From an archaeon (GTDB taxonomy: Archaea > Hydrothermarchaeota > Hydrothermarchaeia > JALTZZ01 > JALUTC01): 16,586 nucleotides of DNA. The notes beneath the pieces are model-generated. The model worked only from the letters and a program-made list of their open reading frames with translations, did no database searches and was not told the DNA's origin. The DNA lies in assembly GCA_027051265.1 (NCBI GenBank), contig JALTZH010000080.1, forward strand, positions 1-16,586. The letters are read 5' to 3'. The position numbers were made by a program, and so were the translations under genes. Shown here one piece after another: positions 13,874 through 15,746 of the stretch. How positions within the stretch are numbered: position 1 is the first letter of the stretch; each line of letters opens with the position of its first letter.

Positions 13874-15628
13874 ATGGGATTAATTCTAAGTAACGAAGAA
13901 CTCGAATATTGTAAAAATAAGATAGTCAACTTTATAAAATCTGAAACAAAACAGGCAAATGCCTCTTATGGTATTGTAGCAATTAGTGGTGGTATTGATT
14001 CAACACTTACTTTATTTCTTGCAAAAGAGGCTTTAAAAGATAGATTAATAGCATTAATCATGCCAGAGAGAGGTGTGACGAGAGAGGAGGATATAGAAGA
14101 TGCCAAAAGAATAGCTGAAAGTCTTGGAGTAAAACACTATACTATTGAAATAAACAATATTATAAAATCATTTGTAAAAACTTTTCCAAAGATTAAAAGC
14201 GAAAACGAACTTATAGCTTTCGGAAATCTAAAAGCAAGGATAAGAATGTGCTTAAATTACCTGATGGCTAACTTAACCAACGGTATAGTTATCGGTACAG
14301 GAAATAAAACGGAATTGTTACTTGGATATTTTTGTTATGATGAGAGAACAAGAGTCCTTACTCCAGAAGGTTTAAAAACATATAAAGAATTAAAACCCGG
14401 TGATAAAGTCTTTTCGATCAATCTTAAAACTGGAGAGGTTGAGGAAGCACTTGTAAAGAATGTTTATGTCTTCAACTACGAAGGTTATATGATTAAAATC
14501 GATGATGGAAACGTGGATCTCCTTGTAACACCAAATCATAGAATGTTGGTAAAGGATAAAAACGATACGCTTACTTTTGTTGTTGCGGAAGAATTTTTAA
14601 ATAACGAACAATACATTCCTTTACCAAAACCTTGGTGTGGATTAAGAGATTCGGAATATATCTTTGTTACTAATGTTAATGAGAATGTGCTAAAAAAAAT
14701 ACCTACCAAATTTTTGTTCTATATGATTGGATTATATCTTGGAAAGGATGTTTATTTCAAAGAAAAATCAAAGAAAAATGGTTCCATAAATCTTCCCTTA
14801 CCAGATAAAAATGAAGCTAAAGAAAAACTATTAGAAATTTTGAGAAAATTTGACATAAAACATGAAATCCATAAAGATTTTGTTAGAATTAATTCAAAAG
14901 CATTATATGAAATATTTAGTCAGTGCGGAGAAGTTTCCGAGAAAAAAAGAATACCGAGATGGGTGTTAAAATATCCTGCTGATAAATTAATTTGGCTTTA
15001 CAAAGGGTTAATTGAGAGCAATAATCATGATAACAAAAACCTTCGAATACGATCTCTACAATTAGCTTTGGATGTTGTTGAGCTCTGTTCAAAATTAGGA
15101 TCGATAGTAAAAGTTGTTAGAAGCTCTTCTGGATTTTATTCGCTTACTATCTTGAACAAATTAAAAGTGATTAAAATAAATCCTAAAAACGTTTCCAAAG
15201 TTTATTATAAAGGTATTGTATGGTGTCCAGATGTACCACCTTATCACAATCTTTTAGTTGAACGAAATGGAAAATTTGTTTTTTGTGGAAACACAAAATA
15301 TGGTGATGGTGGTGTTGATATACTTCCTATAGGAGATCTCTATAAAACTCAAGTAAAACAGTTAGCTAAATACGTTGGCATTCCGGATAAAATTATCAAT
15401 AAAACACCTTCATCCGGATTATGGAAAGGACAAACAGACGAAGACGAGTTAGGAGCAAGTTATGAGGTTATAGATAATATACTATACAAGCTATATGATG
15501 AAGGTAAAAGTGTTGAACTCGTAGCTAAGGAACTAGGCGTTAGTGTCGAAACAATATTGAGATTTAAAAAGATGGTTGAGAGAAATTATCATAAGAGACA
15601 AGGGCCTAAAATTTTAAAGCTTTTTTAA
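13874..15628 (+). CDS. nadE: NH3-dependent NAD+ synthetase, interrupted by an intein
   Basis: This enzyme amidates deamido-NAD+ to NAD+ using ATP and ammonia, the last step of NAD synthesis. The precursor is 584 residues. Removal of residues 154-473 leaves 264, the normal size of archaeal NadE. N-extein motifs are the PP-loop SGGIDST at 38-44 and GTGNKTELLLGYF at 141-153. The C-extein begins TKYGDGGVDILPIGDLYKTQ and continues with TPSSGLWKGQTDEDELG and KRQGP near the end. The exteins rejoin to give the unbroken motif GYFTKYGDG. No glutaminase domain is present, so free ammonia is the expected donor. The ATG at 13874 is 3 bases after the small upstream gene. A T6 run overlaps the stop (15620-15625). 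Enzyme activity requires splicing, because the intein sits in a substrate-binding motif. Confidence 0.95.
   Translation: MGLILSNEELEYCKNKIVNFIKSETKQANASYGIVAISGGIDSTLTLFLAKEALKDRLIALIMPERGVTREEDIEDAKRIAESLGVKHYTIEINNIIKSFVKTFPKIKSENELIAFGNLKARIRMCLNYLMANLTNGIVIGTGNKTELLLGYFCYDERTRVLTPEGLKTYKELKPGDKVFSINLKTGEVEEALVKNVYVFNYEGYMIKIDDGNVDLLVTPNHRMLVKDKNDTLTFVVAEEFLNNEQYIPLPKPWCGLRDSEYIFVTNVNENVLKKIPTKFLFYMIGLYLGKDVYFKEKSKKNGSINLPLPDKNEAKEKLLEILRKFDIKHEIHKDFVRINSKALYEIFSQCGEVSEKKRIPRWVLKYPADKLIWLYKGLIESNNHDNKNLRIRSLQLALDVVELCSKLGSIVKVVRSSSGFYSLTILNKLKVIKINPKNVSKVYYKGIVWCPDVPPYHNLLVERNGKFVFCGNTKYGDGGVDILPIGDLYKTQVKQLAKYVGIPDKIINKTPSSGLWKGQTDEDELGASYEVIDNILYKLYDEGKSVELVAKELGVSVETILRFKKMVERNYHKRQGPKILKLF
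14333..15292 (+). mobile_element. In-frame intein in nadE with decayed LAGLIDADG endonuclease
   Basis: This is a protein-splicing element of 320 residues (precursor residues 154-473). It starts with Cys154 in block A (CYDERTRVLTPEG) and has block B VTPNH at 218-222 with the Thr-x-x-His pattern. Block F is VWCPDVPPYHNLLV at 449-462, with the His kept, and block G is VFCGN at 469-473, ending in Asn473. The first C-extein residue is Thr474, a valid nucleophile. The penultimate residue is Gly instead of the commoner His, a known natural variation. The middle region (about 275-430) resembles a two-motif LAGLIDADG endonuclease: MIGLYLGKD at 284-292 and LYKGLIESN at 375-383. The usual acidic residue is Lys in the first (GLYLGKD instead of GLYLGDG) and Asn in the second. 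Splicing looks intact; homing probably is not. Confidence 0.93.
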
Positions 15629-15669: not shown

Positions 15670-15746
15670 GGGCCCGTAGCTCAGCCAGGTAGAGCGACCG
15701 GCTCATAACCGGTTGGTCGTGGGTTCGAATCCCACCGGGCCCACCA
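15670..15746 (+). tRNA. tRNA with CAT anticodon (elongator Met or Ile2), CCA encoded
   Basis: Acceptor GGGCCCG (15670-15676) pairs with CGGGCCC (15736-15742). The anticodon stem ACCGG/CCGGT closes the loop CTCATAA, with CAT at 15704-15706. The T arm GTGGG-TTCGAAT-CCCAC spans 15719-15735. The discriminator is A15743 and CCA is encoded at 15744-15746. It is not the initiator: it lacks the A1:U72 pair and the three G:C pairs at the bottom of the anticodon stem. Whether it is elongator tRNA-Met or the agmatidine-modified tRNA-Ile2 that reads AUA cannot be settled by eye; the GGGCCC acceptor slightly favours Ile2. An AT-rich TATA-like stretch (TTTTAAATTAAA, 15635-15646) lies at the right distance upstream. 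Confidence 0.93.

Follow-up and report, generated by a model that had tools for sequence, protein, structure and literature searches.

A rare intein in an archaeal NAD+ synthetase with signs of movement between phyla

Class 1 and class 3 inteins have been argued to have separate origins (PMC7664689). In class 3 inteins, the Cys at block F position 4 (F:4, or C2:4) is the branch residue and Cys1 is absent (PMC7891396), as in the split intein AceL NrdHF (6zgq), which also has the Thr at G:5 that marks class 3. Among class 1 inteins, that of the mycobacteriophage Bethlehem gp51 RDF, with a penultimate Gly, has been demonstrated to splice completely (PMC5050341), and some other inteins are reported to respond to oxidants (PMC6195587 and PMC8557812). 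Neither of two reviews on intein hosts mentions NAD+ synthetase (NadE), and an intein in NadE is unnamed in the open literature searched, including for the archaeal copies described below; InBase and subscription papers lay beyond the scope of that search, and an earlier listing is possible.

The window analyzed here is a stretch of 16,586 nucleotides from a Hydrothermarchaeota genome (contig JALTZH010000080.1, assembly GCA_027051265.1). Its nadE is a single uninterrupted ORF encoding 584 aa. The NadE profile PF02540 matches this ORF in two abutting pieces (profile positions 3–138 and 139–242), placing the split point between positions 138 and 139, and the gap between the pieces in the ORF is exactly the insert. 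Features are as follows, with counts of relatives referring to a hand-picked subset of 33 aligned sequences:

13874–15628, + strand: complete nadE ORF
13874–14332, + strand: N-extein of NadE, residues 1–153, with the SGGIDS ATP-pyrophosphatase motif (ORF, split PF02540 match and alignment with solved NadE)
14333–15292, + strand: intein, 320 aa (junction residues, PF14890, AlphaFold2 fold and structural matches)
14333–14335, + strand: block A Cys1 (Cys154 of the precursor), N-terminal nucleophile, kept in 33/33 relatives
14528–14539, + strand: block B TPNH, intein Thr66–His69 (sequence and relatives; VTPNHRM served as seed for the viral scan)
14642–15175, + strand: LAGLIDADG endonuclease region, intein residues ~104–281, apparently decayed, boundaries approximate (fold; lower identity than the splicing part)
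14720–14749, + strand: first LAGLIDADG motif, YMIGLYLGKD, with Lys138 in place of the catalytic acid (D or E in 29/33 relatives)
15005–15025, + strand: second LAGLIDADG motif, GLIESNN, with Asn230 in place of the catalytic Asp (D in 28/33 relatives)
15224–15226, + strand: block F Cys298, position F:4, kept in 33/33 relatives
15281–15292, + strand: block G FCGN, comprising Cys318, penultimate Gly319 and Asn320 (Gly and Asn in 33/33 relatives)
15293–15628, + strand: C-extein of NadE, starting at Thr+1 (TKYGDGG) and including the stop codon (ORF, split PF02540 match and alignment with solved NadE)

A tRNA-like gene lies directly downstream of nadE (15672–15745), with an anticodon that, read by eye only, seems to be CAT.

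Without the insert, the protein contains a full-length domain of NH3-dependent NadE (PF02540) with SGGxDS and TKYGDG motifs, and the rejoined extein of 264 aa aligns without gaps across the junction with solved NH3-dependent NadE (best match 2e18, E 7e-57), bearing out the original prediction that the rejoined exteins have normal NadE length. Splice junctions fall at Phe153/Cys154 and Asn473/Thr474 of the precursor, which makes the earlier placement of Cys154, Asn473 and Thr474 exact to the residue. The insert alone scored only 36.1 bits with Intein_splicing (PF14890; cut-off 35.8) and stayed below threshold for TIGR01445 (18.7 against 24.5). The PF14890 match is weak, and the identity of the insert is decided by its predicted fold. 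AlphaFold2, run with the alignment of 33 relatives, confidently predicted a fold of Hint plus LAGLIDADG type (pLDDT 91.8, pTM 0.91), and the best structural matches to the model were 2cw7, 7qsu and 7qst (Z 22–24 over ~300 residues), with solved inteins overall at Z 20–24. The insert lies in frame in a conserved protein between rejoinable flanks, and it combines a predicted Hint-fold splicing domain with a nucleophile at position 1, a block B TxxH, a C-terminal Asn and a Thr at +1. By sequence and model, the NadE insert is thus an intein, which would be expected to splice, and the split PF02540 match, PF14890, the fold and an insertion site shared with other genomes all agree with its first description as such. 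Chance or assembly error was ruled out as the origin of the insert, as the same residue is occupied in four independent Archaeoglobales genomes.

The splicing residues are unusual in combination. The penultimate residue is Gly rather than His, as in all 33 aligned relatives, and Cys298 occupies block F position 4, where many class 1 inteins have Asp. The F:4 Cys, Gly and Asn lie outside every scan pattern. Viral relatives were retrieved with the pattern VTPNHRM, which in part explains why they share Met71 and TPNH; beyond the 33-row alignment, F:4 Cys is absent in a few viral relatives (L038 and L056), and others end in Gln (L038, L043, L052 and L079). A class 3 assignment was considered, given the F:4 Cys, and was rejected by Cys1, which is present in all five NadE inteins, by Met71 in place of Trp at B:12 and by Cys318 in place of Thr at G:5. 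AceL NrdHF, the closest solved match to the splicing domain alone (VIA-align, Z 19.6, rmsd 2.0 over 146), likewise has Met at B:12 and Cys at F:4, but it is split, lacks Cys1 and has Thr rather than Cys at G:5. The Bethlehem gp51 RDF intein, likened here by its description alone, shares the penultimate Gly. We assume a class 1 order of reactions; going by sequence, the first nucleophile could be Cys1 or Cys298. With no penultimate His, and with Cys in place of Asp in block F, both the splicing rate and the first nucleophile are uncertain. A hybrid route, in which a Cys1 thioester would pass to a class 3-like internal branch on Cys298 and then to Thr+1, is conceivable for this intein and for related ones of phage type, but we hold it to be unlikely. 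If it were true, a large intein family would be an extant transitional form linking classes 1 and 3. The Cys1 plus F:4 Cys signature, common to many viral inteins, bears on the origin of class 3 splicing.

LAGLIDADG enzymes take one acidic residue from each motif. Both catalytic acids are kept in three of the Archaeoglobales copies (LYIGDG and GLMDSDG in L025, L112 and L114), whereas the motifs read LYIGCE and GLVDSNG in L026, and LYLGKD and GLIESNN in the window copy. The window endonuclease is therefore probably inactive, since Lys138 and Asn230 replace both acids. Identity between the window and Archaeoglobales inteins is 70%–73% in the splicing part and 40%–49% in the endonuclease part, a contrast consistent with selection that may have been maintained on splicing alone.

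The insertion site is occupied rarely and patchily. Among the other 22 genomes of the window's phylum the intein is absent, and NadE is uninterrupted in all 19 with a NadE match; in a genus-mate (G022, 81% complete), NadE was not detected. Window-derived patterns, run against 84,980 species genomes, picked out two relatives in NadE genes of Archaeoglobales, and a profile built from this pair added two further copies from 392 sampled genomes of that order's phylum. All four are inserted at the same residue as the window intein. NadE was matched in 48 of the 57 Archaeoglobales genomes; the intein is present in four of these, and the gene is unsplit in 44, two of which run off contig ends. Five NadE inteins are a minimum, as the pattern scan, the one search to reach bacteria and the remaining archaeal phyla, overlooked two of the four relatives later found by profile. 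Host and site, suggested to be new or rare, are thus rare (4/57 Archaeoglobales) and not unique, given four more copies at the same site, all in Archaeoglobales.

Occurrence at this one site is patchy and the intein and host trees disagree, the pattern of a mobile allele. The five NadE inteins form one clade (SH-aLRT 100), with the branch order inside it left open by the tree, and the window NadE falls inside its own phylum in the extein tree (support 100/97), where the four Archaeoglobales carriers sit in one subclade intermixed with non-carriers. Because the window nadE belongs to its own phylum, and the inteins form a clade that their hosts do not, an intein moving across phyla into a resident gene fits these data. 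Transfer of the whole nadE with its intein from Archaeoglobales would equally place the same intein at the same site; it is contradicted by the grouping of the window extein and by rejection, under the model used, of a tree in which the five intein-bearing hosts form one clade (AU p = 9.4e-7), and we regard it as extremely improbable. Vertical inheritance, with an intein in the common ancestor of both phyla lost in nearly all descendants, would account for the identical site and for the large divergence of the inteins between phyla. It would also require losses in all 19 other NadE-matching genomes of the window's phylum and in 44 Archaeoglobales, and it sits poorly with cross-phylum identities that are higher for inteins (53%–59%) than for exteins (49%–50%), a relation reversed within Archaeoglobales, where exteins are closer in 5/6 pairs. 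Some members of the clade, moreover, still have an intact endonuclease, as a mobile element would, and vertical descent is thus very unlikely. With both of these accounts rejected by tree, distribution and identity evidence, we favor movement of the intein alone, for which the donor may have been Archaeoglobales or a common third source. The insertion point opens the most conserved nadE DNA, with 30-base windows from codons 149–153 top-ranked of 255, as expected of a homing site. A related, active endonuclease would have homed into the native nadE by DNA-level horizontal transfer, and its activity would have been lost after arrival; the intein could then persist because it is seldom lost precisely and any inexact loss would disrupt nadE. 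The locus documents one intein allele moving between archaeal phyla into a resident gene, and the copies at this site include endonucleases both intact and decayed. The decay of the endonuclease, the block F Cys and the movement across phyla go beyond the first description of the insert.

NadE carries out the last step of NAD synthesis. The host genome, 95% complete, has one NadE and NadA, and no match to an NAPRTase/NAMPT-family enzyme was found in it. NAD should therefore be made by the de novo route through NadE and should depend on splicing, given the single NadE, the presence of NadA and no salvage phosphoribosyltransferase found, which strengthens the earlier proposal of such a dependence. 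Splicing would convert the 584-aa precursor, through attack of Cys1 (or Cys298) on the Phe153–Cys154 bond, transfer of the acyl group to Thr+1 and cyclization of Asn320, into a released 320-aa intein and a 264-aa NadE. That the intein no longer splices, leaving nadE dead or its product cleaved, might be suspected from the loss of both endonuclease acids and the missing penultimate His; we judge it very improbable, because the family-invariant splicing residues are all retained, the splicing part is far better conserved than the endonuclease part, and extein motifs and frame are intact in a genome in which no other NadE was found. A putative redox or temperature switch on NAD supply, exerted through splicing, draws on three cysteines (1, 298 and 318) in or close to the active site, each conserved across the five NadE inteins, and on analogy with the oxidant responses reported for other inteins (PMC6195587 and PMC8557812). 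Cys1 and the F:4 Cys are retained family-wide, however, presumably for catalysis, and the distribution is patchy, with relatives that manage without the intein; such regulation is accordingly very unlikely. We consider it very likely overall that nadE carries a splicing-competent, horizontally acquired intein with a decayed LAGLIDADG endonuclease in the most conserved part of the gene, and that NAD supply depends on its removal. An essential cofactor would thus be tied to protein splicing, as the host has just one NadE and no salvage enzyme was detected in its genome.

The host genome is rich in inteins, with ~10 in all. Besides NadE, they occur on contigs C255, C211, C79, C178, C173, C96, C55 and C151 of G000 (L190–L197), in hosts named by eye from sequence as IF2, RFC small subunit (two), RNA polymerase A'', DNA polymerase II large subunit, a Hel308-like helicase, a KlbA-like ATPase, GyrA and PEP synthase. 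The NadE intein is the odd one among them, as the others sit in usual archaeal hosts and mostly have an ordinary Asp-type block F where this is covered. In another archaeal genome, an anaerobic ribonucleotide reductase-like ORF of 1721 aa (L115, G157:C32) seemingly contains at least three inteins.

A profile search of viral contigs returned 391 relatives of the NadE intein, which by its relationships is an offshoot of a phage-rich family. The nearest outside relatives are five inteins in NAD-dependent epimerase/dehydratase genes (IMG/VR: L031, L032, L033, L035 and L053), which are sister to the NadE clade (SH-aLRT 95) and share its Cys1, F:4 Cys and penultimate Gly. Each is inserted just before a conserved Ser/Thr of the active-site region, like the NadE intein, here right at a stretch of the type FS/TDEVYG. 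L031 carries another intein-like sequence further along that reading frame. They differ from the NadE intein in host gene, in identity (~30%) and in having mostly intact endonuclease motifs. Further viral relatives, in terminase, ribonucleotide reductase, thymidylate synthase and NAMPT (NadV; Staphylococcus and Citrobacter phages), have block signatures equal to those of the NadE intein, but occupy different hosts and align over partial length or at 23%–46% identity. The NAMPT intein of a Staphylococcus phage shares with it a host gene of the NAD pathway. That phage entry (OR640349.1, L198 1574–3964) is annotated merely as NAMPT and shows the same-family elements CYDEETEVYT, IYCVQV and VCGN/S; similar hits were obtained in Citrobacter phage Tr1 and in further phages of staphylococci.

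Compared with solved inteins, the NadE intein shares the predicted two-domain Hint plus LAGLIDADG fold with PI-PkoII (2cw7) and the TliVMA and PhoVMA inteins (7qsu and 7qst), at ~20% identity and in a different host. Its closest counterparts are the four Archaeoglobales NadE inteins (L025, JAMOPJ010000036.1; L026, QMZE01000115.1; L112 in G081; and L114 in G105), which equal it in insertion residue, splicing residues and Thr+1, and differ in residing in hosts of another phylum and, for three of the four, in retaining both endonuclease catalytic acids. NadE is thus a rare and apparently unreported intein host, which offers a new host and a new site for an element of well-known kind.
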